Positions 33,625-53,556 of a DNA stretch of 64,000 nt are shown here, piece by piece. The notes beneath the pieces are model-generated. The model ran no database searches, was not told the origin of the DNA, and worked only from the letters and a program-made list of their open reading frames with translations. The position numbers and the translations under genes are program-made. The stretch's first letter is position 1. Each line of letters begins with the position of its first letter. This DNA comes from Capnocytophaga haemolytica (GTDB taxonomy: Bacteria > Bacteroidota > Bacteroidia > Flavobacteriales > Flavobacteriaceae), in NCBI RefSeq assembly GCF_001553545.1, contig NZ_CP014227.1, positions 845,001 to 909,000 of the forward strand, in the 5' to 3' direction.

Positions 33625-35025
33625 TTACTTTATAATCATATTACTTTCTTTATAAATACTCAGTTTATTCCACTTAATCACAGGACCTCCTCCTCGCTTG
33701 CCCCAAAAACGACCTCTACCCACAAAGTCTCTTCCTTTTTCATCATTGAGTTTGTCCTGAGTTTCTTTGCTAAGTGAGTTAAAGTCAGGAATATCAATCT
33801 CTATATCTGTCTTATCTCCAAAGAAAACGTGCGTCCTATAATGGTTATTCTGAGTGTCCATAATCGCTTTTTCAACCCCCCTGAGGATCACTTGTATATT
33901 ATCCGCCTTGTCAGGGTTCATATACTTCATAAAATCATCGTGAGTAGCAGTTTCTGCTCTCAGATAAGCGATGCTTACAAAAGTAACGTTCTTCTCTGCA
34001 GCATACGAAAGCGCCTTACTGCCATTGGTGAGGGTTTCAAACTTACCTGTTACCGACACCGTTTCGCCTTCCGCTAACTGGTAAAGCGTCTGCTGAAACA
34101 TCGCGTCAGTATAAGGGCTGTACAAGGCTACTTCTACCCCATCGAATGTAATATAAGCTTTTTTATCTTTGGCTACGATCTTCCCATCTAAGGTTACCCA
34201 TTTGCCTTCGTTGGCGGTGAAGTCAGAGGCTTTTGCGCTTTTATCCGAAAGAACAGCGGGGGCAGCTGGCTTAGCAGGTGCAGCCCCAAAAACCAAGTCT
34301 TTGGCTTGCTCAAAAATGATTTGAGCCTGAGCCCCCTCATCTTTAAACTTCCCTGTGACAGTAACCTCATAGCCTTCGGTGAGGAGCTTTTCGAGGTCTT
34401 GTGCAGCGAGAGTGAGCCCTTGCGCTGGGGTTATCTTCACAAAGAAGGTACTCTCAGCAGTCTTAAACTGAGCAACTCCTTCTTTGAGGAACACTTTCCC
34501 GTGAAGGATGGCTGTTTGGTTGGCTGCTTTGGTTTGGGTGTACACAGCCTTAGTGAGTTTCTCAGCCTCTAATTTCTTAGTTTCAGCAGGCGTTACTTTG
34601 CCAAAGGTGAGATCTTTTTCTGCTTTGTAAACCAAACGCGCTTTGACGGTGTTGCCTTCAGTAAGGGTAGTGAAAGTACCTACTGCAGTCACCTCTTGCC
34701 CATCGGTGGCGAGTTTGGCTTTAGCCTCGGCTGAAAGTGCACTTACCACGGCAGGTTCACCATAGAGTTCTACCTCAAAGTTATCTTTGAGTGTGAAGTA
34801 AGCCTTGCCGTCACTAACGGTGATATTGCCGTGCAGCTTTACCAGCTTGTTGAGGTTCGTGTTAAAGTCTGCCTGAGTGGCACTTTGTGCCTCAAGCGCT
34901 TTGGCTATAGGCACTTCGGGGCGGATGGGTTCATCATTGTCTTTCTGACAAGATACGGTACCAAAAAGTGTGAGCGCAAGTAGGCTCAACACCAACATTA
35001 ACTGCCTTAATTTCAATAATTTCAT
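33625..35025 (-). CDS. Lipoprotein of four tandem OB-like domains
   Basis: 466 aa with lipobox C26 (GTVSC). Four related modules of about 90 residues follow (roughly 48-145, 155-250, 262-352, 358-462). Each has the pattern (V/I)xLHGxIxxxxGKAYFTL, then xVELY, then EGxEVxVxGKF and a closing KDLxFG. This looks like an OB fold of the nucleic-acid or DUF5689 sort. The function is not known to me. It follows a two-module paralogue and the TonB receptor on the same strand, so it may be a surface or periplasmic ligand-binding partner of that receptor. Confidence 0.75.
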   Translation of the reverse strand: MKLLKLRQLMLVLSLLALTLFGTVSCQKDNDEPIRPEVPIAKALEAQSATQADFNTNLNKLVKLHGNITVSDGKAYFTLKDNFEVELYGEPAVVSALSAEAKAKLATDGQEVTAVGTFTTLTEGNTVKARLVYKAEKDLTFGKVTPAETKKLEAEKLTKAVYTQTKAANQTAILHGKVFLKEGVAQFKTAESTFFVKITPAQGLTLAAQDLEKLLTEGYEVTVTGKFKDEGAQAQIIFEQAKDLVFGAAPAKPAAPAVLSDKSAKASDFTANEGKWVTLDGKIVAKDKKAYITFDGVEVALYSPYTDAMFQQTLYQLAEGETVSVTGKFETLTNGSKALSYAAEKNVTFVSIAYLRAETATHDDFMKYMNPDKADNIQVILRGVEKAIMDTQNNHYRTHVFFGDKTDIEIDIPDFNSLSKETQDKLNDEKGRDFVGRGRFWGKRGGGPVIKWNKLSIYKESNMIIK

Positions 35026-35047
35026 ATAGCTTATGGTTTAAAATTTC

Positions 35048-35842
35048 TCAATTGTGAAAAGTGATGTCGTCCAAACTGTTATAGAGCACCTCGCGGGTGT
35101 AATACTCATTGAAAATACCCCGCACCGTTAGCTCTGTACCCACCTTGAAGAGCTTATCCTTAATCTCTTGCGGATAAGTGTTTTGGTCTTCATTGTATAT
35201 CTGTATTTCATTGCCGTCGGCAAGGGTCATAAAGGCGCGAGTAGTAAAGTTCTTAACCCCCAGTATGCGCAGGTGAGTGATCACCCCGTGCAGCCTAATT
35301 TCTTTACCTTGCACAAAATCCTTTGCCATCGTGATCTTTGAGGCTTCTAATAGCGGTATAGTTTCAGCAGGCGGGCGCGGTGGTGGTGGGGTATTGTCAA
35401 AAACAAGATCTTGAATGCTCTTGTACTCTATCTGCTTCTTGACAAAACCGTTACCTGTGGTAAACTCAATAAACTTGCCCACAATGGTCAGCTCTTGCCC
35501 TTCCTTAAGTAACTTCGCCTTAATATCAGCTGGGAAAGTAGCGAGCTTAGCTCTATCGATATAAAGCTCCACACGAAAGTGATCCTTGAACTCAAAAGCA
35601 GAGCGCCCCGACCTAACAACTAAATGCCCGTGTACACGTACCGTTTGGTTCAAATTGTTGATAAAATCGGCTTGTACAGCATCCTTTGCCTCGATGTACT
35701 TAAGCCCGTCAGCTGGAGGCACATACGGAGGTTCCTCAGGAATATCAGGTGGCAACGGTGGCGCCTCATCCTTATGGCAAGACATTGCCCCCAAGAGGAG
35801 TAGCCAAACACTCAACCATAATAATAAATTTCTCTTTTTCAT
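35048..35842 (-). CDS. Lipoprotein of two tandem OB-like domains
   Basis: 264 aa from ATG 35842 (the lipoprotein signal MKKRNLLLWL begins there; the longer in-frame start lacks one). Lipobox LLLLGAMSC, then a proline-rich linker (PPLPPDIPEEPPYVPP) that could span the distance from the membrane. Two modules follow (about 60-155 and 170-264) like those of the neighbouring four-module protein: TVRVHGHLVVRSGRSAFEF, VELY, EGQELTIVGKF and DLVF. The two genes are 22 nt apart and surely related by duplication. Confidence 0.75.
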   Translation of the reverse strand: MKKRNLLLWLSVWLLLLGAMSCHKDEAPPLPPDIPEEPPYVPPADGLKYIEAKDAVQADFINNLNQTVRVHGHLVVRSGRSAFEFKDHFRVELYIDRAKLATFPADIKAKLLKEGQELTIVGKFIEFTTGNGFVKKQIEYKSIQDLVFDNTPPPPRPPAETIPLLEASKITMAKDFVQGKEIRLHGVITHLRILGVKNFTTRAFMTLADGNEIQIYNEDQNTYPQEIKDKLFKVGTELTVRGIFNEYYTREVLYNSLDDITFHN

Positions 35843-35906
35843 ATATTTACAGTGAACTTGTTTAAACTTTTTTCTTTGTGTCATTCACGGATCGATTTCA
35901 CGATCT

Positions 35907-35992: not shown

Positions 35993-36036
35993 TACAACCA
36001 ACGGATAGCTAACGAACAGCTAACGAATAGCTAATT
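35993..36036. repeat. 11-bp phased repeat array (4 units) at the end of the TonB receptor gene
   Basis: Four 11-mers of RATAGCTAACG type, the last overlapping the stop codon of the receptor gene. Confidence 0.75.
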
Positions 36037-38107
36037 AAAGCCTAAATGATATTCCAGCTATAAAAGTGCGTCCTTCACGTGGGTAGCCTTCATTGGAATA
36101 GTAATAGAGCTCATCAAAAACATTGCTCACACTCACCTCAAGACTCAGTTGTGGCACGATATCGTACGAGAGTTTGGCGTTCACCAAGGTGAAATTGGGC
36201 ATATATTCCCCATCGTGGTTGAGCCGCTTCATTGAGGTCTCACTACTCAGATAGCAATGAGTACGGATCTGCGGCACACTCACATTGGCATAACCTATAA
36301 TCTTATGGCGGGGTACATTGACGAAGGAAACCTCATTTTCATTGCCAAAGTTCTCCAATGCACGCATCGAAAGATAGGTGTAATTGCCGCCTATGGTAAG
36401 ATACTCAAAAGGCTTATAGCCAAAGCCAAGCTCAACCCCTTTGGCTTCTGCCTTGCCGACATTGGAGTTCTGCACCAAAGGGTCTTTCCCGTTGGGCTGT
36501 AACCCCACTTTCTTCTCGTAGATGGCGTCGGTGATATCATCGTAAAAAGCAGATACTTCATAGCTCAACTTTCCTTTTAAGCCACCTGAATAGCTCAACT
36601 CATAAGCCATTGTATACTCCGAGCGGAGGTCGGGGTTGCGTTTTTTCATCCCAAAACGAGAAGTATAACGCTCCTTCTGTGAGGCAAAACGCGAGCGCCT
36701 TTCTGCCGAAAGACTTACACTATGGTTTTCGGCAGGAGTGAAAATAACCCCTGCCTTATAGCCCAAAGCGTGGTCAGCACCTTTAGGAAAATCCCAGAGG
36801 TATTCCTTCTGATCGCGCCTCCCGTCGATCTTGCTGTACTCCTGAGCCAAAATATTGTAACGGACACTGTACGAACCTCCTATCACTACACTGAGCGGGC
36901 GAGCAAGCGTAATCACATCCTCGACCCCGACAAAGAGGGTATTGTCCTTATAGTGCTGCTTAGGCTCTCCCTTGCGCTCTATCTGCCCTATGGCAGGGTT
37001 GGCTTTAATGCCTTTGAGATACTCGACGTGGTGATCGTACTTATCGGTAAAGGAAAGCGTCAAGATGTTGTATTTCAATAGTTCGGTTGTCAGGTTGAGC
37101 ACTGCCCCCACGCTGTAATCATCATAGACACTGTTGAAAAAGCGCGCCGTGTTGCGTAGCAAGTATTTATCGTCGTCATAGAATGCCATTCGGTTGTAGT
37201 ACATATCGTAGTAGCCTGTGAGATTCATAAAGGTTTTAGGAGCAATGAGCGTGCGCGATTTGGCGTAAATACTGCTCTTGTTATAAATCGGGTAATCGCG
37301 GAAAGGACCTTTGGCGTAAGCGTTAGGCGCAATCTGCTTATTGGCTACTTGGGTGAGGAAGTTCAGCGAATACTCGTCGGTGGCATTGGGGGTATAGCCC
37401 ACTTTGGCACTTACCTTTGCATCCTGATAGGCAGTGCGTTTGCGCGTGCGCTCAGGGTTGTACTTCGATTCGAATTTCTTGGGAAGAATGAAGTCGTCAC
37501 CATTGCGGATTGTAAGCCCCACCATCGCGTACCAGTGCTCCTGTCGTGTGCCTGCATTGACACTCCCAAAATAGGAATTCACTCCTGCCCCATCGGCAAA
37601 GCCTACCCCTACCTTACCACTGATATCGACGGGCTTGAGAGGTTTGCGTGAGATAATATTCACTGCCCCTGCCATCGTGTTAGGTCCGTATTTTACAGAT
37701 ACCAAACGCTTATCTGCCGAAACGGCTTCTATGTCAAAAGCCGTAAAGCGATTGAGGTCAAAATTGCCATCGTAGGGGGCGTAGATAGGGATACCGTCGT
37801 AAAAGACGGCAGTCTGCCTACTGTCGAAAGCACGCAGATTGATGCCACCCTCATTGCGCGCCCCTGCGTAGGAAATAGAAATACCAGGGAGGAGGTTGAG
37901 CGATTCGGTGACGTTAAACTTGTTGTAATTGAGAAATTGCTTTGCCTCGACCTTATCGATGGAATGAGGCACGGGCTTCACGCCAGTTACTCTCACCTCT
38001 TGAAGCTGGTAGAATAGCCCCAGTGTATCAGCTTTGTTAGGCTGAGTTTGTGCCAGCCCAAAGGTTGGGAGTGCCACGAGGAGCGTGATGATGCTATACT
38101 GTTTCAT
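36035..38107 (-). CDS. TonB-dependent receptor, copy A (Moco locus)
   Basis: 690 aa from ATG 38107, which overlaps the upstream lipoprotein stop as ATGA; the longer ORF start upstream lacks a signal peptide. Signal peptide (FGLAQ), then the conserved DTLGLFYQLQEVRVTGVKPVPHSIDKVEAK, plug domain (ISYAGARNEGGINLRAFDS, KYGPNTMAGAVNIISRKP) and a barrel ending in Phe-Arg-Leu. It is one of three close paralogues. All three lack a carboxypeptidase-like N-domain and a SusD partner, so they are small-ligand receptors of the siderophore/vitamin/metal type. Translational coupling to the SUOX-like lipoprotein implies they act together. Confidence 0.88.
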   Translation of the reverse strand: MKQYSIITLLVALPTFGLAQTQPNKADTLGLFYQLQEVRVTGVKPVPHSIDKVEAKQFLNYNKFNVTESLNLLPGISISYAGARNEGGINLRAFDSRQTAVFYDGIPIYAPYDGNFDLNRFTAFDIEAVSADKRLVSVKYGPNTMAGAVNIISRKPLKPVDISGKVGVGFADGAGVNSYFGSVNAGTRQEHWYAMVGLTIRNGDDFILPKKFESKYNPERTRKRTAYQDAKVSAKVGYTPNATDEYSLNFLTQVANKQIAPNAYAKGPFRDYPIYNKSSIYAKSRTLIAPKTFMNLTGYYDMYYNRMAFYDDDKYLLRNTARFFNSVYDDYSVGAVLNLTTELLKYNILTLSFTDKYDHHVEYLKGIKANPAIGQIERKGEPKQHYKDNTLFVGVEDVITLARPLSVVIGGSYSVRYNILAQEYSKIDGRRDQKEYLWDFPKGADHALGYKAGVIFTPAENHSVSLSAERRSRFASQKERYTSRFGMKKRNPDLRSEYTMAYELSYSGGLKGKLSYEVSAFYDDITDAIYEKKVGLQPNGKDPLVQNSNVGKAEAKGVELGFGYKPFEYLTIGGNYTYLSMRALENFGNENEVSFVNVPRHKIIGYANVSVPQIRTHCYLSSETSMKRLNHDGEYMPNFTLVNAKLSYDIVPQLSLEVSVSNVFDELYYYSNEGYPREGRTFIAGISFRL

Positions 38108-38751
38108 AGTCGATATACTTCTATACTTTTTACCCAATTGATATGCCGCCCCATCTTCTTGTCATTAAAGCTCTCTACCATCATCTCGCCTTTATCGGTC
38201 AGAGGTTTGCCATTTTCTTCAAAAATGAGGTAAGCCCCATCACCTATAATAGTGTTAAAGATTTCTGACCAAGAAAAGAGTACTGTAAAATTGTCAGTAG
38301 CACGCACTACAATATAAAAGCTACGGTCTTTGTGGTTCTTCTGCAAAATATCTGCATCAAAGAGGATATCACGCAAAAGCACCCCTTTAGCCGAGTGAAT
38401 ATCATCCATATTCTTATCCGATCCGCAGGCACAAATCATTTTCTTATCTTTAATTTCGCGCACATTCATTTTCTTCAATGATGCTACTGTAAGTGTTACA
38501 GGGTTGGCTACTTCACCCATTACTTTTACCTCTTTGCTTACATAGTTATCCTTTCCACCGCCATCATAAGGCATACCACATTTAGGAGCAGCTTCCACCT
38601 CAACATTTTTTATATTTACAGCAGCCTGTTGCACTGTGGTCTGCGTTTTGGTTGAAGTGATGCTCTGTTGCGATGTCTGCGAATTGTTGCAAGCCATCAC
38701 TAATGAAAGCAGCGCCCCTAAAAGTATTAATTTGATTGTTTTTCTATTCAT
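38104..38751 (-). CDS. Lipoprotein with small SUOX-fold (molybdopterin-oxidoreductase-like) domain, copy A
   Basis: 215 aa with lipobox C21. A conserved CGMPYDGGGK (C58) is followed by about 140 residues resembling the sulfite-oxidase-type Moco-binding fold. In that region are a cysteine (C107, ICACG) just before KGVLLRDILFDADI, RATDNFTVLFSWSEIF, and YLIFEENGKPLTDKG. In SUOX enzymes the cysteine at that position ligates molybdenum. The protein is too short to be a full enzyme, so it may instead bind the cofactor or a related ligand. It is fused by ATGA overlap to the receptor gene. Confidence 0.65.
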   Translation of the reverse strand: MNRKTIKLILLGALLSLVMACNNSQTSQQSITSTKTQTTVQQAAVNIKNVEVEAAPKCGMPYDGGGKDNYVSKEVKVMGEVANPVTLTVASLKKMNVREIKDKKMICACGSDKNMDDIHSAKGVLLRDILFDADILQKNHKDRSFYIVVRATDNFTVLFSWSEIFNTIIGDGAYLIFEENGKPLTDKGEMMVESFNDKKMGRHINWVKSIEVYRL

Positions 38752-38782
38752 TATAAATTATTAATTATAAACTATACACAAA

Positions 38783-40870
38783 TTAAAATCTATATTCCAA
38801 AGCTACTAAGAAGCTGCGTCCAGGACTTGGAAAGTTTTCAGAAGAGAAATAATAGTTCTTATCCAATGCGTTTTTTACACTAAAGCTAAGGGTTAATTCC
38901 TTTATCATATCATACGATAGTTTTGCATTGACAACTGTAAAATCGGGCATATCCTCCTCATCATAATCCTTTTGCTCAAGGTAGCTTTCTGAGTTTACAA
39001 ATAGCCTTGTACGGATTTGAGGTACTGAAAAATTAGCGAAAGCTGCTATCTTATGCTTGGGTATATTTGAAAATATGATTGTTTTGCCATTACCATCTTC
39101 GCCTTTTAGCTCAATAAAGCTGTAACTACCCCCCAACCTTACATATTGAATAGGGGCATAACCCAAGCCTAACTCGACTCCTTTTGTGTCGGCATTTCCT
39201 GCGTTTTGGCTTTGCCTAATATCTTTTCCATCGGGGCGTGTGCCTACTTTTTTGGTGTAAACCTTATCCTTCGTATCATCGTAGAACAATGATATTTCAT
39301 AACTTAACTTGTTATTTATATTTGCCGAATAGCTCAGTTCATACGCCATCACATATTCCGATTTCAAATCAGGGTTAGGCAAATAGGTGCTGTTTGCCCC
39401 GTATGATGAGGAGTAGCGCGCCATCTGTGAGGCAAAATGCGTACGTCTTTCAGCTGAAAGTGAAATGGTGTGATTATCAAGTGGAGTTACCAGCACGCCT
39501 GCCTTATAATTAAAAGTACTATCTGAGCCTTTGGGCAGCTCAAAAAGGGCGCTTTTTGTCTCTCCAGTAAACGGATTGGAGCCGTACTTTCGCGCTAAAA
39601 TATTACTGCGAACTGTATATGAACCCCCTAAGACCACACTCAATGGCTTAGCAATGGTGATTACATCTTCCAAACCCACAAAAAATGTGTTGTCTTTATA
39701 ATGTTGCTCTGGTGTCCCTTCCTTAAATATTTGTCCTGTGGCTCTATTGGCTGCAATCTCTTTATCGTACTTTGTATGGTGGTCGTATTTATCAGTTAGT
39801 GATAGCGTAATCACATTGCGTTTTAAAACCTCAGTACTTACGTTAAAAATAGCCCCCATACTCTGGTCGTTATACACACTTTTACTGCTATTTCGGTTAT
39901 TCAGAAGTGTACGCGAGGTATCGTCATACCAGCCCATTATATCGTAATGGCGGTAGTAATAACCTGTAAAGTTCATAAAGGTTTTAGGGGCTATCAGCGT
40001 GCGTGTTTTCAGGTAAATACTCCCATTTTCGTAAATAGGGAAAGCAACACTTCGTCCAGTAGTCATCACACTTCCTGGGAGGTTTTTCTTTGCCATCGTA
40101 GACATAAAGTTGATGGAGTACTCATCCGTTTTATTGGGTGTATAACCTAATTTGGCACTTATTTTTGTATCGGTTTGGTTGCTGTCGTCTCTCACATAAG
40201 TTTTTTGCCCTTTAGCCCTTGTACGTTCGAGGTCAAAATCCTTTGAGAGTACAAAGTTTTCTACTTTATCCACGCTACCACTTACCATTGCATACCATTT
40301 TTCCTTCAAAGTACCCGCATTGATAGTTCCTAAATAAGAGTTTACCCCTGCTCCATCAGCAAACCCTACCCTTAATTGTCCATTAATATCTACTTCCTTA
40401 GTAGGCTTGCGCGAAACCACATTGATAGCACCTCCTATCGCATTAGGTCCATACTTTACTGATAGCAACTTCTTATCTACCGAAACTCCAGCTACATCAT
40501 CAACTAAAAAGCGGCTTGCATCGAAAGTCCCCTCATAAGGTGCATAGAACGGTATCCCATCATAAAAAAGAGTGGTTTGGTCTGTGTCAAAACCTCGTAG
40601 CCTAATCCTACTTTCATTTTTCATTTCAAAGCGTGAGATAGTAATCCCTGGCAATAAGTTCAATACCTCAGCGAGATTTCCTTTGTCATAGGCTCTAATT
40701 TCCTTTGCCTCTATCTTATCAATAGTGTGTGGAGCCTCTTTTATGCCTGTTACTTTCACCTCTTGCAGCTCGTAAAATAGCCCAAGAGTGTCTTTCTTCT
40801 CTTTCCTTGTTTGTGCTATTGCACCCATAGTGAATACGAGTACAACAGCGATTATTAAATGATATCTCAT
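38783..40870 (-). CDS. TonB-dependent receptor, copy B (Moco locus)
   Basis: 695 aa from ATG 40870; the longer ORF start would lie over the -7 box at 40914-40921. Signal peptide (MGAIAQ), then DTLGLFYELQEVKVTGIKEAPHTIDKIEAK, plug motifs (GITISRFEMKNESRIRLRGFD, KYGPNAIGGAINVVSRKP), and a barrel ending FLVALEYRF. Clear paralogue of copies A and C. It has its own promoter after a terminator, is followed 31 nt later by SUOX-like lipoprotein A, and then by receptor A, so receptor-lipoprotein-receptor form one transcript. Confidence 0.88.
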   Translation of the reverse strand: MRYHLIIAVVLVFTMGAIAQTRKEKKDTLGLFYELQEVKVTGIKEAPHTIDKIEAKEIRAYDKGNLAEVLNLLPGITISRFEMKNESRIRLRGFDTDQTTLFYDGIPFYAPYEGTFDASRFLVDDVAGVSVDKKLLSVKYGPNAIGGAINVVSRKPTKEVDINGQLRVGFADGAGVNSYLGTINAGTLKEKWYAMVSGSVDKVENFVLSKDFDLERTRAKGQKTYVRDDSNQTDTKISAKLGYTPNKTDEYSINFMSTMAKKNLPGSVMTTGRSVAFPIYENGSIYLKTRTLIAPKTFMNFTGYYYRHYDIMGWYDDTSRTLLNNRNSSKSVYNDQSMGAIFNVSTEVLKRNVITLSLTDKYDHHTKYDKEIAANRATGQIFKEGTPEQHYKDNTFFVGLEDVITIAKPLSVVLGGSYTVRSNILARKYGSNPFTGETKSALFELPKGSDSTFNYKAGVLVTPLDNHTISLSAERRTHFASQMARYSSSYGANSTYLPNPDLKSEYVMAYELSYSANINNKLSYEISLFYDDTKDKVYTKKVGTRPDGKDIRQSQNAGNADTKGVELGLGYAPIQYVRLGGSYSFIELKGEDGNGKTIIFSNIPKHKIAAFANFSVPQIRTRLFVNSESYLEQKDYDEEDMPDFTVVNAKLSYDMIKELTLSFSVKNALDKNYYFSSENFPSPGRSFLVALEYRF

Positions 40871-40913
40871 TGTTATTAATTTTTGAATATAAATGTTAAT
40901 TGATTTCTCGCAG

Positions 40914-40921
40914 CAAAGATA
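40914..40921 (-). promoter_or_regulatory. Receptor B operon -7 box
   Basis: Minus-strand TATCTTTG, 43 nt before the start codon. Confidence 0.6.
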
Positions 40922-41102
40922 TGATATTTTTTTCATATCGATGCTATATCGAAAGAAGAAAATTTATAAAAGAAAGTAATTTTTATTAATTATTGTGAAA
41001 AATCAAAGTAAAATATTACTGTTAACTCGCTGTTTAATAATTGTTTAAATAGCAAACACAAGAGATTTAGGTTTTGTTATTTTTATCAAAATAAAAATCG
41101 TA

Positions 41103-41146
41103 TACGATCCGTTTGCGGTAGGTTCAGTAACGGTTCAGTAACGGTT
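41103..41146. repeat. 11-bp phased repeat array (4 units)
   Basis: Two identical units CAGTAACGGTT preceded by two diverged units. Just downstream of the operon terminator. Confidence 0.75.
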
Positions 41147-41160
41147 TCTTAGAAGATCAT

Positions 41161-41200
41161 AGAAAAGAAAGGAGGCGCACCTGCTGCGGATTGCCTCCTT
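41161..41200 (-). terminator. Terminator of the moa/receptor C operon
   Basis: Minus strand: AAGGAGGC / GCCTCCTT stem, then TCTTTTCT, 33 nt past the lipoprotein stop. Confidence 0.8.
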
Positions 41201-41232
41201 CTTGGGAAAATATGTATTAGATAATTTTGGGC

Positions 41233-41868
41233 TTATGGAATGCGATGCACTTCGATGGTTTTGAGCCACATTACGTGTCGTGGTCCTGTTTTGGTGTCGT
41301 TGAAGGACATTACGATCATTTCGCCTTTTTCGGTCAGGGGTTTGCCGTTTTCCTCGAAGATGACGTAAGCCTGTTCGCCATTGGGGCTATTGAAGAGCTC
41401 TGCCCACGAAAAGCCTGCTGTAAAGCCATCGGTGGCACGGGCTACGATGAAGAAGTTGCGGTCTTTATGGTCTTTCTGCTTGATATCGGCATCGAAGAGG
41501 ATTTCCTTTAAGAGGACGCCCTTAGCGGTGTGGATATCGCCTCGATTTTCACCTGAACTACAGATAATTTGCTTGTTTTTGATCTCGTGGACGTTCATCT
41601 TTTTGAGCTTATCGACGGTGAGGGTCATTGGGTTTTCAACCTCACCGACGACTTTGACTTCGTGGCTGATGTAGCTTTCTTTGCCGCCACCGTCGAATGG
41701 CACACCACAGTCGGTTTTCATAGTGTCGGCAGGGTGCTGATGCTCGGAGGTGGCTTCCTGCTCAGTAGTGGGTGTGGCAGTAGCCTGCTTCTGCTGGGTG
41801 TTGTTGCAGGCTAAGGCTAATGAAAGCGCAAGCCCTGCAAGGAATAATTGGATTGTTCTTTTTTTCAT
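41233..41868 (-). CDS. Lipoprotein with small SUOX-fold (molybdopterin-oxidoreductase-like) domain, copy B
   Basis: 211 aa with lipobox C21. Paralogue of the protein at 38104-38751: the same CGVPFDGGGK (C54), VKVVGEVENPMTLTVDKLKKMNVHEIK, cysteine C103 aligned with C107 of copy A (IICSSG), TAKGVLLKEILFDADI, ATDGFTAGFSWAELF and VIFEENGKPLTEKGE. An N-terminal linker holds HQH and other polar residues. It follows receptor C by 29 nt and ends the long operon that includes moaA, moeA, modE-like and mobA. Confidence 0.68.
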   Translation of the reverse strand: MKKRTIQLFLAGLALSLALACNNTQQKQATATPTTEQEATSEHQHPADTMKTDCGVPFDGGGKESYISHEVKVVGEVENPMTLTVDKLKKMNVHEIKNKQIICSSGENRGDIHTAKGVLLKEILFDADIKQKDHKDRNFFIVARATDGFTAGFSWAELFNSPNGEQAYVIFEENGKPLTEKGEMIVMSFNDTKTGPRHVMWLKTIEVHRIP

Positions 41869-41897
41869 TGGTATTTGTGTATTAATGCGTTAGTATT

Positions 41898-44000
41898 TTA
41901 AAAATGATAGCCGAGGGCTACAAGGAAGCTGCGCCCTGCACGGGGGTAGCCCATAGTGAGGTAATAGTCCTTGTCGAGAAGGTTTTTTACACTTACCTCG
42001 GCGCCGAGTGTGGGGAGGATGTCGTAGCTGAGCTTGGCATTGATAAGGGTAAAGTCGTGAGCCTCTATTTTCTTCTTCGAGAGCACATCGTCAACATAGC
42101 GCTTGCCATAAGTCTCGGTATTGACGTAGAGATGGGTGCGCAGTTGTGGAATGTGGAAGTTGGCATAGCCTATCACTTTGTATTTAGGCACGCCTGTGAA
42201 TTCCTCGGATGAGTTGGTTTCTTTGTTCTTTATCTCAATATAGCTGTAATTAGCCCCGAAGGTGATGTACTTAATAGGTGTGTAGCCAAAGCCTACTTCA
42301 AAGCCTTTGGACTCTGCCTTACCGATGTTTTGGTTTTGATAGATAGTTTGGGTGGTGGTGCCTCTTCGCTGCTGAATGACTTCGGTGCGGATCACTTTGT
42401 CGTAAATGGCGTCGGTGATATCGTTGTAGAAGGCAGCGACTTCATAGCTGAGTTTGTTGTTGATATTGCCTGAGTAGCTCACTTCATAAGCCATAGTGTA
42501 CTCCGACTTGAGGTCGGGGTTAGGTTCTGCAGACCCAAATCGGGCTGAGTAGCGTTCCTTTTGAGAGGCAAAACGTGAGCGTTTTTCAGCTGAGAGGGTG
42601 ATGAGGTGTCCTTCAGCAGGGGTGATAAGCAGTCCGCCCTTGTAGTCAAAGGAGTTATCGGAGCCTGTGGGGAAGTCGTAAAGGACGTCCTTTTGGTTGG
42701 TTTGGTAGTGGGTGCCGTACTCTTGTGCGAGGATGTTATTGCGCGTAGTGTATGAGCCGCCGAGCACTAAGCTCAATGGTTTGGCAAGAGTGATCACATC
42801 TTCCAAGCCCACAAAGAGGGTATTGTCCTTATAGTGCTGTTCGGGCTCGCCTGCGCGGTACTTCTGCCCTGTGAGGGTGTTGGCAGGGATCTCGGCATTG
42901 TGCTCGGTGTGGTGGTCGTACTTATCGGTAAATGAGAGGGTAATGGTGTTGTATTTCAGTGCCTCAGTAGTGAAGTTGAGGGCTGCCCCAAGGGTGTAAT
43001 CGTCGTAGATGCTGGTAAAGCTCGGTGGACGGCGATCGTTGTTTTGGAGTGTATAGGTGTTGTTGTCGAACTGGCGCATTATGTTGTAATAAGCGTCGTA
43101 ATAGCCCGTAAAGTTCATAAAGGTTTTAGGGGCTATCAGTGTGTGGGTCTTAGCGTAGATACTGCTCTTCTGGTAGATGGGATAATCGCGGTAGGTAGCC
43201 CCATTGATGCTGTTGGTGGAGATGTCCTTGCGCGCCATCTGGGAGAGGAAGTTCAGCGAGTACTCATCGGTTTGGTTAGGGGTGTAGCCCACTTTGGCAC
43301 TTACTTTGGCATCTTGATGGGCGCTGTGAAGACGCTCGCCTGTGGGCTGGTACTGAGTGGCTTCGAAATCTTTAGAGAGCATAAAGTTATTGGCTTTATC
43401 AATAGTAAGGCTTCCCATAGCGTACCACTTCTCTTGTAGAGTACCTGCGTTGATCGTACCGAAGTAGGAGTTTACCCCTGCTCCATCGGCAAAGCCAGCG
43501 CCTATCTGTCCGTTGATGTCGGCAGTTTTAGTAGGTTTGCGCGAGATGATGTTGATAGCGCCGCCCATAGTGTTGGGCCCGTATTTGACTGAAAGCAAAC
43601 GCTTATCGGCTGCTATGGAGGCTATGTCATAAGCCGTGAAGCGGTTGAGGTCGAAATTGCCGTCGTAAGGGGCGTAGATAGGGATGCCGTCGTAGAAGAC
43701 AGGGGTACGGCGGTTATCGAAGCCACGAAGGGTAATGCTGCCTTCATTGCGGGCACCCATCTCGGTGATGGCAAGCCCTGGCAAGAGGTTGAGCGCCTCG
43801 GTGACGTTGGGCTTGTTGTAGTGCTTTATCTGCTTGGCATCGACCTTATTGATAGAATGTGGTGCTTGCTTTACACCTGTTACCTTTATTTCTTGTAATT
43901 GGTAGAATAGCCCAAGTGAGTCTTTATTCTCAGGCTGACTTTGTGCTGCAACGCTCATTGTTAAAAGGAGTGCAGCAGCGGTTGTAAAATGATTTTTCAT
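41898..44000 (-). CDS. TonB-dependent receptor, copy C (Moco operon)
   Basis: 700 aa. Signal peptide (MSVAAQ), DSLGLFYQLQEIKVTGVKQAPHSINKVDAK, plug (GLAITEMGARNEGSITLRGFDNRR, KYGPNTMGGAINIISRKP) and a barrel ending FLVALGYHF. The start lies 19 nt after the mobA stop, so the gene is in the same transcript as the Moco genes. That link is the best clue to its ligand, which may be molybdate, a molybdenum chelate, or a pterin cofactor; the choice is inference. Confidence 0.88.
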   Translation of the reverse strand: MKNHFTTAAALLLTMSVAAQSQPENKDSLGLFYQLQEIKVTGVKQAPHSINKVDAKQIKHYNKPNVTEALNLLPGLAITEMGARNEGSITLRGFDNRRTPVFYDGIPIYAPYDGNFDLNRFTAYDIASIAADKRLLSVKYGPNTMGGAINIISRKPTKTADINGQIGAGFADGAGVNSYFGTINAGTLQEKWYAMGSLTIDKANNFMLSKDFEATQYQPTGERLHSAHQDAKVSAKVGYTPNQTDEYSLNFLSQMARKDISTNSINGATYRDYPIYQKSSIYAKTHTLIAPKTFMNFTGYYDAYYNIMRQFDNNTYTLQNNDRRPPSFTSIYDDYTLGAALNFTTEALKYNTITLSFTDKYDHHTEHNAEIPANTLTGQKYRAGEPEQHYKDNTLFVGLEDVITLAKPLSLVLGGSYTTRNNILAQEYGTHYQTNQKDVLYDFPTGSDNSFDYKGGLLITPAEGHLITLSAEKRSRFASQKERYSARFGSAEPNPDLKSEYTMAYEVSYSGNINNKLSYEVAAFYNDITDAIYDKVIRTEVIQQRRGTTTQTIYQNQNIGKAESKGFEVGFGYTPIKYITFGANYSYIEIKNKETNSSEEFTGVPKYKVIGYANFHIPQLRTHLYVNTETYGKRYVDDVLSKKKIEAHDFTLINAKLSYDILPTLGAEVSVKNLLDKDYYLTMGYPRAGRSFLVALGYHF

Positions 44001-44019: not shown

Positions 44020-44598
44020 TTAATGGTTTAGTTCTTTTTCTATGAATTGCTGGGCTTGGGTCAGAGCCTCAGGGGTGTTGATGTTTTGCAAGAAGGGGGC
44101 GTAGTGCTCAGACAAATTGATGTAATGCACTTGGTTTTCGCTGAGGAAGGCTACCATTTTGAGTTTATTAGCGGCTAAGGCTTGCTGCAGGGCAGGTAGC
44201 ACAACATAAGGGTAAACGCCTACCGTAGGATAGACTTTACCAGCGCATCGCACTACGCTGAGAGTTCCTTTAACGCTTTTAGCAAGTACCTCCTTTACAA
44301 TTCCTTTGGACAAAAAAGGCATATCGCAGGGCGCAAAAAAAGAGTCCTCTTTCAGGTAGGTTAGTGAAGCACAGATACCGCCCATTGGTCCCTTATCGGG
44401 GTCGCTATCGGGAATATTGCGCACTATAGCGGGAGCCGTAAAGGCCTCGCCTGAGATGTATACCTGAGGGAAGATTTGTTGCAAGGTATCGGTGATATAC
44501 TGAGCTATTGGTTTGCCATTGAGGGGGATGAGGGCTTTATTGTGCCCCATTCGGCTACTCTTTCCGCCTGCTAAGATTACTGCCTTCACGTTCTGCAA
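44020..44598 (-). CDS. mobA: Molybdenum cofactor guanylyltransferase MobA
   Basis: 192 aa, nucleotidyltransferase fold with the GTP-binding loop LAGGKSSRMGHNKALIPL near the start, DSDPDKGPMGGICASL and APCDMPFL. It attaches GMP to Moco to give the guanine dinucleotide form used by DMSO-reductase-family enzymes, which agrees with the molybdoenzyme of this locus. It overlaps the ModE-like gene by 44 nt. Confidence 0.92.
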   Translation of the reverse strand: MQNVKAVILAGGKSSRMGHNKALIPLNGKPIAQYITDTLQQIFPQVYISGEAFTAPAIVRNIPDSDPDKGPMGGICASLTYLKEDSFFAPCDMPFLSKGIVKEVLAKSVKGTLSVVRCAGKVYPTVGVYPYVVLPALQQALAANKLKMVAFLSENQVHYINLSEHYAPFLQNINTPEALTQAQQFIEKELNH

Positions 44599-44893
44599 AT
44601 TCTTTAAACTTTTTGTCTAACTGGTTGTAATCAGCTACGAGTTTGCGCCCATAATCGGTAAGGGAGCTACGCCCTCCTGCTTTTCCGCCTACTTCTTTAA
44701 TAACGGCGGGTTCGGGGGCATTTTCATTGATGCTGCGTATCATTCCCCAAGCGATGCGGTAGGGGATTTCGAGCTTTTTAGCAGCTTCGGAGATGGAGCC
44801 TAAGTCGTCGATGCACTCTAAGAGTTTTACACGCCCATAGCCTATCTGTAAGCCTGTCTCGGTTTCAAACCATATATGTCCTTTGATTTTCAT
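44555..44893 (-). CDS. ModE-like winged-helix DNA-binding protein (N-terminal domain only)
   Basis: 112 aa. It resembles the LysR-like N-terminal DNA-binding domain of ModE: LGSISEAAKKLEIPYRIAWGMIRSIN, then KEVGGKAGGRSSLTDYGRKLVADY. The C-terminal molybdate-binding MopB/TOBE domains of full ModE are absent, so any molybdate sensing must come from elsewhere. It probably regulates this operon. It overlaps moeA by 4 nt (ATGA) and mobA by 44 nt. Confidence 0.85.
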   Translation of the reverse strand: MKIKGHIWFETETGLQIGYGRVKLLECIDDLGSISEAAKKLEIPYRIAWGMIRSINENAPEPAVIKEVGGKAGGRSSLTDYGRKLVADYNQLDKKFKEFAEREGSNLSRRKE

Positions 44894-46086
44894 AGTTGAT
44901 ATATTTTTACGGTTTCGCCTTGTGGTAAGAAGTCTTTTTCAGCAGGAAATTCTATCAAGCAGTTAGCTTTTGCTACGCTATCCATACGGTAGGACTCTTG
45001 CCCTTCAAGAGGCTTTACCCCTTGGGGAGTTTGTACTGCTTTGAAGAATACTGTGAGCTCTTTTCCTTTTTTCTTTATTGTAGAGAGGAGAGTTGCTTCT
45101 GTCTGCTCGTGGAAGCTATCGTGTGCACCTGTGAGGGCAAGCAGGAAAGGTTTTACATAGATGTGGAAGCAAGTGAATACCGAGGCTGGGTTGCCTGGCA
45201 TTGCAAATACATATTTATCGCCCCGCTTGCCGAAGTATAAGGGTTTACCTGGTTTTTGCTTTATCTTGTAGAAGATTTCGGTAACGCCTGCTTCTTGAAG
45301 GGCACCTCGCACGTAGTCGTAATCACCTACTGAGATGCCACCTGTGAGCAGTAGGACGTCAACCTCGGCAAGGGTTTTTTCTATGGCATTGAGGGTAGCC
45401 CCCTTGGTGTCATTGACCATTGTAATGCGCTGCAAATGTTGCCCTAAGGCTATGAGTTCAGCGTGGAGGGTGTAGGCATTGGAGTTGTATATCTTTCCTT
45501 CAACGAGGGGTTCGCCCAAGTCAAGCAATTCGTCGCCTGTGACCAAAACACCTATTTTGAGCTTGTGATATACGCATATCGTTGGGATACCGAATCCTGC
45601 TAAGAAGCCTATCACCTGTGGAGTGATCAGAGTATGAGCAGGTAGAATTGTAGTGCCTATCTCGGTTTGTGAGCCTTTGAGGCGGATGTTGTCACCCTGC
45701 TTTACTTCCTCGCGATTGAAGTGAATAAGGTCGCCCTCGAGAGTTACTTTTTCTTGGATGACAACTGTATCAACACCCTCTGGTACTTTTGCCCCTGTAA
45801 AGATACGTACCGCCTCGCCTTTACCGAGATGAAAATCAGTTGGCAACTGGCCTGCAGCAATGACCTGAGTAACGGTCAGTGGAGTGTTATCGGCGAGATC
45901 AGCATAGCGAAAGCCATAACCATCCATTGCTGAGTTATCAAACGAGGGGACAGCCACTGGAGCTACAATAGCTTCAGCAGTGTAGTGCCCCAAGCTCTTG
46001 ATCAGTGGCTTGAAGGTCGGCTGTGTGAGGTATCGCTCAGCCTCGATGAGGCGCCGTGCTTCGGATACAGTAATGAAATAATTCAT
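44890..46086 (-). CDS. moeA: Molybdopterin molybdenumtransferase MoeA
   Basis: 398 aa. It inserts molybdate into adenylylated molybdopterin. Visible family motifs are SFDNSAMDGYGFRYADL, RIFTGAKVPEGVDTVV, TGDELLDLGEPL, LLTGGISVGDYDYVRGAL and MPGNPASVF. Placed between moaA and the ModE-like gene on the same strand. Confidence 0.95.
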   Translation of the reverse strand: MNYFITVSEARRLIEAERYLTQPTFKPLIKSLGHYTAEAIVAPVAVPSFDNSAMDGYGFRYADLADNTPLTVTQVIAAGQLPTDFHLGKGEAVRIFTGAKVPEGVDTVVIQEKVTLEGDLIHFNREEVKQGDNIRLKGSQTEIGTTILPAHTLITPQVIGFLAGFGIPTICVYHKLKIGVLVTGDELLDLGEPLVEGKIYNSNAYTLHAELIALGQHLQRITMVNDTKGATLNAIEKTLAEVDVLLLTGGISVGDYDYVRGALQEAGVTEIFYKIKQKPGKPLYFGKRGDKYVFAMPGNPASVFTCFHIYVKPFLLALTGAHDSFHEQTEATLLSTIKKKGKELTVFFKAVQTPQGVKPLEGQESYRMDSVAKANCLIEFPAEKDFLPQGETVKIYQL

Positions 46087-52242: not shown

Positions 52243-52338
52243 TAAAAAAAATAGATATTTGTAATATTTATACTCAATCTATATAAAAAAATACTGCAAT
52301 CATTTAAATTACAGTCTTTTATATGAAATTAACCTTCG

Positions 52339-53556
52339 TTATAACCTCTGTATCACAACGGCAGAATTTGTACCTCCGAAGCCAAAGGAGTTCGACAAGA
52401 AAGCGCGAATCTTCGCCTCACGGGTTTCAGTAACCACATTGAGCCCCTGCGCTACCTCGTCCAGATGGTCAATATTGATGTTCGGGGCTATAAAATCATT
52501 CTGAAGCATCAGCATTGAGTAGACGATCTCGCTGGCACCCGCCATCCAACACTCGTGCCCCGTCATCGACTTGGTAGAGCTCACAGGCACGCCCCTGCCG
52601 AAAATCTGCGCAATGGCACGCGCCTCGTTGGCATCGCCTATGGGGGTGGAAGTAGCATGTGCATTGATGTAGTCCATCTCGCTCGCCTTCATACCCGCAT
52701 TCTCAAGGGCACGCGCCATCGCACGGGCAGGTCCTTCAACGTTAGGGGTTGAGATATGCCCTCCATTTGATGAGAATCCGTAGCCTACCACTTCCGCCAA
52801 TGGCACTGCTCCACGCCTGTGGGCGGACTCATAGCTCTCCAATATCAAAGTGGCAGCCCCGCCGCTGGGCACCAGTCCATCGCGTGCAGCATCAAAGGGG
52901 CGTGAAGCCTTCTGGGGGTCATCTTCGCGCATTGAGAACACGCCCAGCCCATCAAAACTACCCATACTGTACTTGTTGATCTCCTGTGCACCCCCGCAGA
53001 TAATCATATCCTGCATACCGCTCTGTATGAGCAAATAGCCCAAGCCTACGGCGTGCGACCCGCTGGCACAAGCCGCACTTACGCTTAGGTTTACACCCCT
53101 GAGGGTGAAGAGCGTGGAGAGGTTCATCGTAACGGTGGAGTTCATCGTGCGGAACACCGCTCCCGAGCCTACTAAGGTGGTATCACCCTTCTCGCGGATA
53201 GTGTCGTTAGTGAGTATTACCGACTCAGCCACGCTGTCGTTGCCGTAGAGGATACCCACTTCGTTAGCCTTGAGATAATCGCCATCAATGCCTGCCTGCT
53301 CCAAAGCCTCGCGCGTAGCCATATAGGCAAACTCGCTTTCCTGTCCCATTGAGATGCGTTCGCGTCGCCCAAGTACGCCCTTCAACTCGGGGTTTGCCAC
53401 CCAGCCCGTCAGTGCCGAGCGGTAGCCATACGCCTTGCGCTGCGCATCAAAAATAATACCCGATCGCCCTGCTCGCAGCGAAGCACACACCTCGGCAAGC
53501 GAAGTGCCTATGCAGGAGTAAATCCCCATCCCTGTAATAACTACTCTATGTTTCAT
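52339..53556 (-). CDS. Beta-ketoacyl-ACP synthase II-type enzyme (FabF/FabB-like), probably polyene/DAR type
   Basis: 405 aa, thiolase fold. Catalytic C163 (SAACASGSHA), His in INAHATSTPIGD (about 300) and His in SMTGHECWMAGASE (about 337), the Cys-His-His set of active condensing enzymes. The sequence differs from housekeeping FabF enough (SVAESVILTNDTIREKG, GAVFRTMNSTVTMNL) to suggest the ketosynthases of aryl polyene/flexirubin clusters. The DAR operon lies 45 kb away on the other strand, so a link is inference. Confidence 0.8.
   Translation of the reverse strand: MKHRVVITGMGIYSCIGTSLAEVCASLRAGRSGIIFDAQRKAYGYRSALTGWVANPELKGVLGRRERISMGQESEFAYMATREALEQAGIDGDYLKANEVGILYGNDSVAESVILTNDTIREKGDTTLVGSGAVFRTMNSTVTMNLSTLFTLRGVNLSVSAACASGSHAVGLGYLLIQSGMQDMIICGGAQEINKYSMGSFDGLGVFSMREDDPQKASRPFDAARDGLVPSGGAATLILESYESAHRRGAVPLAEVVGYGFSSNGGHISTPNVEGPARAMARALENAGMKASEMDYINAHATSTPIGDANEARAIAQIFGRGVPVSSTKSMTGHECWMAGASEIVYSMLMLQNDFIAPNINIDHLDEVAQGLNVVTETREAKIRAFLSNSFGFGGTNSAVVIQRL

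Follow-up and report, generated by a model that had tools for sequence, protein, structure and literature searches.

What does an operon for molybdenum cofactor (Moco) synthesis do with outer membrane receptors? The question is raised by a 64,000-nucleotide stretch of the Capnocytophaga haemolytica genome (contig NZ_CP014227.1, positions 845,001 to 909,000; hereafter the window). On its minus strand, the open reading frame (ORF) list and a Pfam scan place three genes for TonB-dependent receptors (A, B and C) and two genes for small lipoproteins (A and B) matching PF00174, the family of the sulfite oxidase (SUOX) fold, after moaA, moeA, a modE-like gene and mobA. An earlier reading made from the sequence alone (the sequence-only reading) had taken this set as an outer membrane uptake or scavenging route for molybdenum, tungsten or a pterin-bound metal. 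Molybdate is usually thought to cross the outer membrane via porins, regulated uptake beginning at ModABC. With moderate confidence, we interpret the module as the outer membrane and periplasmic part of a ModE-linked acquisition system for molybdenum (or tungsten), the ligand being a prediction, because receptor-lipoprotein pairs are found together with modE, modABC or moa genes in several lineages of Bacteroidota, many of them preceded by a ModE-type palindrome.

Receptor-lipoprotein pairs recur beside molybdenum genes

Of 394 genomes sampled from the phylum, 46 encode a relative of the lipoprotein, that of C. haemolytica included. Neighbourhoods were analyzed in a collection comprising the best 80 of 233 loci and in a survey of 32 loci fetched from the draw of 394 genomes; as control we used 40 windows of 16 kb taken at random from five genomes that carry the lipoprotein. 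Neighbourhood, box and co-occurrence counts are raw values that are not corrected for relatedness, and the receptor model was built from the receptor type of the module and would miss many other receptors. In the collection, a molybdenum gene was located within 8 kb in 65 of the 80 loci, modE was detected in 59 and a receptor gene on the same strand in 58. The survey loci contained a molybdenum gene within 8 kb in 16 of 32 cases and a receptor in 21. The receptor gene was located directly upstream of the lipoprotein gene in 47/80 collection loci and 19/32 survey loci. None of the 40 control windows contained a molybdenum gene, and two gave a weak receptor match.

The arrangement is real and recurrent in Bacteroidota, occurring in several families. 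Its commonest form is a modE-receptor-lipoprotein cassette, which is also present in one strain of the laboratory species Flavobacterium johnsoniae (L076). A molybdenum gene within 8 kb was found in 12 of 13 Chryseobacterium/Epilithonimonas loci and, among loci from genomes of neither the Flavobacterium nor the Chryseobacterium type, in 21 of 27. All 17 survey loci of a distant family (f32, which we guess to be probably Bacteroidales) contained a receptor gene, and six had a molybdenum gene nearby; for the other 15 survey loci the numbers were 4/15 (receptor) and 10/15 (molybdenum gene). In some lineages a lipoprotein gene without a receptor gene was observed, with modABC as neighbour in L150, L153 and L154, and within a moa cluster that has tauE nearby in L149 and L155. 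Free cassettes are usually found away from the genes for Moco synthesis, and location inside a Moco operon characterizes Chryseobacterium-type and some other clusters. The expectation that such pairs accompany Moco genes therefore has to be divided: among Flavobacterium-type loci it fails for the synthesis genes (moa genes within 8 kb in 0/40) but holds for modE (32/40).

These counts bear on the alternative according to which the cluster merely gathered abundant Bacteroidota receptors by chance or hitch-hiking. The survey already makes this unlikely. Within the genus, PF00174 is confined to the window genome (1/20 genomes), as chance acquisition would have it, but the recurrence in several families, the random windows free of molybdenum genes and the absence of the strict ModE-type box from all 448 control ORFs (see below) leave this explanation hardly credible.

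A ModE-type palindrome precedes many of the pairs

A palindrome of the form C[AG]NTAT-N12-ATAN[CT]G was present in 36 of 41 gaps between modE and the receptor gene, most of them from Flavobacterium-type and related loci; of the nine gaps from other loci, six have it. Half-sites and spacing equal those of the Escherichia coli ModE consensus, ATCGNTATATA-N6-TATATANCGAT, as given in an excerpt of the PubMed Central (PMC) article PMC545781. In the f32 loci, forms near CGTTAT-N12-ATAACG precede the receptor gene, and the same type of box was found before modA in three loci (L136, L138, L143).

The strict box was located upstream of the lipoprotein or receptor gene in 38/80 collection loci, 12/17 f32 loci and 3/15 other survey loci, and upstream of none of 448 ORFs in random windows (ORFs of at least 200 amino acids, nested ORFs kept in). 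As further controls, four strict sites were detected in 656,040 random bases, and a looser score of 9.5 was reached by 7 of 600 random 340-bp segments. Elsewhere in the molybdenum loci the strict box preceded modE in 5/68 cases, modA in 3/26, tauE in 0/10, moaA in 0/25, moeA in 0/23 and mobA in 0/22, counts that include many genes lying inside operons. Since the strict form is rare or missing before other molybdenum genes, the box is, as judged from these counts, chiefly a mark of the receptor-lipoprotein unit.

In the window and its closest relatives only imperfect forms were detected by these scans. A half-site scan of the window gave two sites that agree with the half-sites at 9 or more of 10 positions and have a symmetry of 5/6, and a weak site precedes the modA gene of the same genome (L099:5159). 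Of the 12 Chryseobacterium/Epilithonimonas loci looked at, 8 have an imperfect CGATAG-N12-ATAACG behind moaA.

The lipoprotein has a SUOX fold and is probably not an enzyme

The structural comparison proposed with the sequence-only reading came out in its favor: the AlphaFold model of lipoprotein B and fold searches with it agree on the SUOX fold, and PF00174 is matched by both window copies. Profile searches of the PDB gave nothing up to E 10 with alignment A1 and three rows with E values of 0.38 or worse with alignment A3, and hhalign of the lipoprotein family against SUOX enzymes yielded no usable alignment; absence from the list of fold matches was not counted as evidence.

Among 112 relatives (numbering of the lipoprotein encoded at 41233-41868), G75, D147 and E157 are invariant, D191 and R197 are found in 111 and G106 in 110. 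Position 103, at which SUOX enzymes ligate molybdenum through a cysteine, is occupied by Cys in 83 relatives, Gly in 20, Asn in 5, Asp in 3 and Ser in 1. The cysteine to which the sequence-only reading had drawn attention is present in both window copies (C107, C103) but replaced in 29/112 relatives, and on the alignment it is therefore dispensable for the family. Similarly, the second motif, CG(M/V)P(Y/F)DGGG, is found in both window lipoproteins but is not conserved in the relatives.

In Flavobacterium-type cassettes (L048, L049, L051, L052 and others) an 853-aa receptor replaces or accompanies the 669-aa receptor. Lipoproteins encoded with the 669-aa receptor have the cysteine in 31/31 cases, those with the 853-aa receptor alone in 2/17 (with Gly at this position in 14/17) and those with both receptors in 4/4. 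A link between cysteine loss and receptor type was considered, but only three changes between Cys and non-Cys are required by parsimony on a tree that FastTree built from 105 sequences; the link is largely that of one clade and no proof of co-specialization.

In alignment A1 (38 relatives) a cysteine occupies the lipobox column in 38/38 sequences, and twin arginines (RR) before the lipobox are found in 0/38, compared to 6/6 SUOX enzymes of relatives with the RR motif; thus, export of the lipoprotein looks like Sec and not twin-arginine translocation (Tat). In the wider alignment the lipobox cysteine is present in 88 of the 112 relatives and in 3 of 25 distant ones; distant relatives without a lipobox resemble soluble periplasmic proteins as judged by eye. 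A strict lipobox pattern matched 46 of 114 ORFs (RR in none of these 46, at least two acidic residues in two) and was judged too strict, so that the conclusions on export rest on the alignments of 38 and 112 relatives.

Exported Moco enzymes receive their cofactor in the cytoplasm, before Tat export. Since the lipoprotein does not appear to be a Tat substrate, it should meet its ligand in the periplasm. Acidic residues after the lipoprotein cysteine are a signal for surface export. At least two acidic residues at positions +2 to +6 are present in only 2/38 aligned relatives and in neither window copy; because of this, and because distant relatives are found without a lipobox, a periplasmic role appears likelier than capture at the cell surface. 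Surface capture, which the term 'capture factor' of the sequence-only reading suggests, is thereby disfavored, and we read the lipoprotein as acting behind the receptor, in the periplasm, where it would bind or release the ligand.

The same data speak to the possibility that the imported compound is acted on by the lipoprotein itself, which would then be a small sulfite oxidase-type molybdoenzyme. Fold and cysteine position are those of such enzymes, but the twin arginines that all six SUOX enzymes of relatives carry are missing from all 38 aligned sequences, the second, dimerization domain was not found in the Pfam scan, and the cysteine is not universal. In addition, the His, Arg and Lys positions that we take to contact the cofactor in chicken sulfite oxidase do not appear to be conserved when the C-terminal motif is compared by eye. 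Signal type and the non-universal cysteine disfavor an enzyme, which we regard as very unlikely.

A second alternative draws on the same fold: the lipoprotein could be a PruR-like periplasmic pterin sensor or carrier and the receptor an importer of pterin or pterin-bound metal, with the link to molybdenum arising through pterin chemistry. The scanned window genes include no partner of the DcpA or kinase type, profiles A1 and A3 fail to reach PruR in the PDB by sequence, and PruR has a Trp where the lipoprotein family mostly has Cys; ModE-type boxes and modABC neighbours would suit an oxyanion equally well. We consider this explanation rather unlikely. By the tests made, the lipoprotein is neither a SUOX enzyme nor PruR.

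Co-occurrence with Moco genes and inner membrane permeases

MoaA was detected in 38 of 46 lipoprotein genomes and in 182 of 348 others (Fisher p 6.5e-5, likewise not corrected for relatedness), and eight lipoprotein genomes have no MoaA match up to E 1e-60. Of 49 lipoprotein genomes searched for ModB, representing the inner membrane step, 13 gave a score above the cut-off (the window genome included), as did 12 of 12 genomes tested, among them six genomes without matches to MoaA, MoeA_N and PF00384. A pair together with ModB in genomes without known molybdenum enzymes could reflect decay, another use or a different ligand.

A gene for a permease of the TauE family, named for sulfite export in Pfam, is located within 8 kb in 8 of the 27 loci outside Flavobacterium- and Chryseobacterium-type genomes. 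Such a gene was observed beside the lipoprotein gene or one gene off in L037 (11084-11833), L056, L077, L086, L087, L088, L149 and L155; in L037 an imperfect ModE-type box lies 5 nt upstream of it. In the five tauE-neighbour genomes searched (L037, L077, L086, L087, L088) ModB was not found above the cut-off, and a TauE-type permease might, speculatively, be the inner membrane partner where ModB is missing. For most Flavobacterium genomes searched we have no inner membrane candidate, and TauE gave no match in the window genome.

Organization of the module in the window

The coordinates together with matches to PF07715, PF00593 and PF00174 confirm the three receptors and two SUOX-fold lipoproteins within the Moco operon (Table 1). 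On the minus strand the gene order begins with a 351-aa ORF, which may head the operon, followed by genes for a molybdopterin oxidoreductase, a ferredoxin-type protein and a Rieske protein, a 99-aa ORF, moaA, moeA, the gene for the ModE-like helix-turn-helix protein, mobA, receptor C, lipoprotein B, receptor B, lipoprotein A and receptor A.

Table 1. Coordinates of the module, its neighbouring genes and the candidate ModE-type boxes in the window (aa, amino acids; pLDDT, predicted local distance difference test score).
Feature	Position	Strand	Remarks
TonB-dependent receptor A, last in order	36035..38107	-	PF07715 + PF00593; likely start ATG 38107
SUOX-fold lipoprotein A (C21, C107)	38104..38751	-	PF00174 E 3.1e-5, 24.1 bits (cut-off 24)
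TonB-dependent receptor B	38783..40870	-	PF07715 + PF00593; start inferred from sequence
Candidate ModE-type box, weak	40917..40940	.	46 nt upstream of receptor B ATG 40870, in the gap of ~362 nt
SUOX-fold lipoprotein B (C21, C103)	41233..41868	-	PF00174 E 9.9e-9, 35.4 bits; AlphaFold model and fold matches
TonB-dependent receptor C	41898..44000	-	PF07715 + PF00593; model pLDDT 80.8, fold matches are TonB receptors
mobA	44020..44598	-	PF12804 E 2.8e-32; TIGR02665 108.7 bits, under cut-off 151.85
ModE-like DNA-binding domain protein, 112 aa	44555..44893	-	TIGR00637 E 5.6e-24
moeA	44890..46086	-	PF03453, PF00994, PF03454
moaA	46140..47132	-	TIGR02666 above cut-off
Rieske, ferredoxin-type and molybdopterin oxidoreductase (nitrate-reductase-like) genes, upstream of moaA	47491..50979	-	
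Candidate ModE-type box, weak	52337..52360	.	~211 nt upstream of 351-aa ORF (ATG 52125)

As reported earlier, receptor C and lipoprotein B follow closely behind mobA, with distances of 19 nt (mobA to receptor C) and 29 nt (receptor C to lipoprotein B), and receptor A overlaps lipoprotein A by ATGA (38104-38107). The listed ORF of receptor A begins at TTG 38137; the likelier start forms this overlap with the lipoprotein A stop. Receptor B and lipoprotein A are separated by 31 nt, and lipoprotein B and the likely receptor B start by about 362 nt. The ORF list places the beginning of receptor B at 40936, in overlap with the candidate box, but the signal peptide favors ATG 40870. Because of the short gaps and overlaps we infer that the operon down to lipoprotein B forms one transcript; the gap of about 362 nt suggests a second promoter and possibly a separate transcript for the last three genes (receptor B, lipoprotein A, receptor A). 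The receptors are 52-60% identical (A-C 60%, A-B 52%) and the two lipoproteins 59%, and the set therefore looks like an old tandem expansion. Two further lipoproteins with weak OB-fold matches are encoded downstream of receptor A on the same strand (33625-35884); they have no match among the collection loci.

The ModE-like gene scored 84.1 bits against TIGR00637, which is under the curated cut-off of 98.5, and PF00126 (E 0.0025) was its sole Pfam row up to E 0.1. A molybdate-binding domain was not found in the 112-aa protein by the Pfam and TIGR00637 scans, so that it consists of the DNA-binding domain alone. The absence of modABC noted earlier agrees with the window genes scanned, but the genome does encode modABC about 22 kb past the window end (C1:931240-933299; L099:5241-7300).

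PF00174 was matched in 7 of 60 genomes, including that of C. haemolytica; the other six matches are SUOX enzymes of 406-439 aa. Besides the window genome, none of 19 genomes of the genus has PF00174, and MoaA scored above the cut-off in 4 of 20. The stretches fetched from the other three of these four genomes (L171, L172, L173) contain nar, ferredoxin, Rieske, moaA and modABC genes together, flanked by genes of the major facilitator superfamily, and neither a lipoprotein nor a receptor of the module type was found in them. Since these three genomes keep modABC in the nar-moaA cluster, its position in the window genome is a different one. A 211-aa lipoprotein encoded before moeA in L172 was considered as a missed relative and discarded, as the family model gives no match; it presumably resembles an SCO-type protein. 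The closest gene order observed is that of Chryseobacterium/Epilithonimonas, which runs from nar to moaA, lipoprotein, moeA, modE, mobA, receptor and moeB; 8 of the 13 loci have a receptor gene at no more than 8 kb distance. A horizontal origin of the window module is plausible.

Evidence against a molybdenum ligand

Several observations weigh against a ModE-linked molybdenum system. The strict box is missing from 42 of the 80 collection loci and from all 13 Chryseobacterium/Epilithonimonas loci, which have the closest gene orders, and it is scarce before modA (3/26) and missing before tauE (0/10). The two window sites are weak given a Markov null mean of 0.87 per window, and the weight-matrix scan of the window stayed at noise level (best score 9.3, mean of shuffled maxima 8.7). 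No molybdenum gene was found within 8 kb of 11 of the 17 f32 pairs and of 15 of the 80 collection loci, some of the latter on short contigs. Three genomes of the same genus have the nar-moaA-modABC cluster without the module, and 36 of the 49 lipoprotein genomes searched lack ModB above the cut-off. Six of the eight genomes without MoaA (G250, G262, G274, G305, G329, G462; completeness 94-100%) are also without MoeA_N and PF00384 matches, and five of these six show the receptor-lipoprotein pair (L136, L137, L138, L141, L142).

Each receptor has plug and barrel (PF07715, PF00593). The fold matches of the receptor model include metal and metallophore receptors such as OprC, PirA, Fiu, Cir, BtuB and XusA, which is in line with a molybdenum system, but they are generic, as is the receptor class. 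The pair could import another nutrient, e.g., a siderophore, copper or a sulfur oxyanion, its proximity to molybdenum genes being indirect. The generic receptor class, the persistence of pairs in the five genomes just mentioned and the TauE-family permease near 8 of 27 diverse loci are in line with this, but the free cassette itself holds modE, the box fits the ModE consensus, and the five MoaA-less genomes with a pair still have ModB. Taken together, we regard import of another nutrient as quite unlikely.

Proposed mechanism and significance

The outer membrane route for molybdenum put forward in the sequence-only reading is strengthened by recurrent modE-receptor-lipoprotein cassettes, modABC neighbours and ModE-type boxes, but several of its details fail or are less certain. 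In the mechanism that we propose, the ModE-like protein would permit the synthesis of receptor and lipoprotein when molybdenum is scarce. Driven by TonB, the receptor would then take up a form of molybdenum that is too dilute or too bulky for passage through porins, probably molybdate or tungstate bound to a small chelator. The lipoprotein, a shortened SUOX-fold domain predicted to be exported by Sec and to act on the periplasmic side, would bind the arriving ligand or free the oxyanion from it, and ModABC (encoded 22 kb past the window in C. haemolytica) or another permease would move the oxyanion inward. The module would thus work like a TonB-dependent metallophore system, and its window version would have grown to three receptors and two lipoproteins.

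A bolder version, which we judge unlikely, holds that the compound taken up by the receptor is a pterin complex of molybdenum or tungsten (released Moco or a dedicated pterin-type molybdophore) and that the lipoprotein is a periplasmic molybdenum-pterin carrier with a SUOX fold derived from a Moco enzyme, in a salvage system for cofactor or metallophore found across Bacteroidota.

If the ModE-linked acquisition system proposed here is correct, Flavobacterium, Chryseobacterium and other Bacteroidota would actively import molybdenum, perhaps chelated, across the outer membrane. Proteins now labelled 'molybdopterin-dependent oxidoreductase' in databases, a name that is probably wrong for the lipoprotein family, would then have a function. 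The module is a small, concrete cassette that is suited to deletion tests.

Comparison with known systems

No description of a TonB-dependent system for molybdenum that includes a SUOX-fold partner appeared in the titles and abstract openings listed by literature searches of open-licence PMC articles, or in the excerpts of PMC12758843 and PMC545781. In PruR, according to an excerpt of PMC13259868, a Trp replaces the Mo-ligating Cys, and the protein is paired with DcpA or DTB regulators. The window lipoproteins, in contrast, have Cys in both copies, and Trp does not occur at position 103 in the 112 relatives; the partners are a TonB receptor and ModE or mod genes, and a DcpA/DTB-type regulator was not found among the neighbouring window genes scanned. 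Sulfite oxidase and YedY share the PF00174 fold and the position of the cysteine with the module lipoprotein, which differs from them in the missing twin arginine, the dimerization domain that was not found and a cysteine that is not universal.

The XusA-XusB system of Bacteroides likewise combines a receptor with a lipoprotein partner, and XusA is among the fold matches of the receptor. XusB is surface-exposed according to the title of PDB entry 9gbc, whereas no surface-export signal was detected in the module lipoprotein and its distant relatives are without a lipobox; furthermore, the partner in the module has a SUOX fold, and ModE-type boxes are present in module loci. ModE-ModABC shares with the module the regulator domain, the type of box and, in some lineages, the modABC neighbours. 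The ModE of the module is a DNA-binding domain alone, for which an excerpt of PMC545781 gives a precedent in the single-domain ModE of delta-proteobacteria, and the set linked to it extends to the outer membrane.

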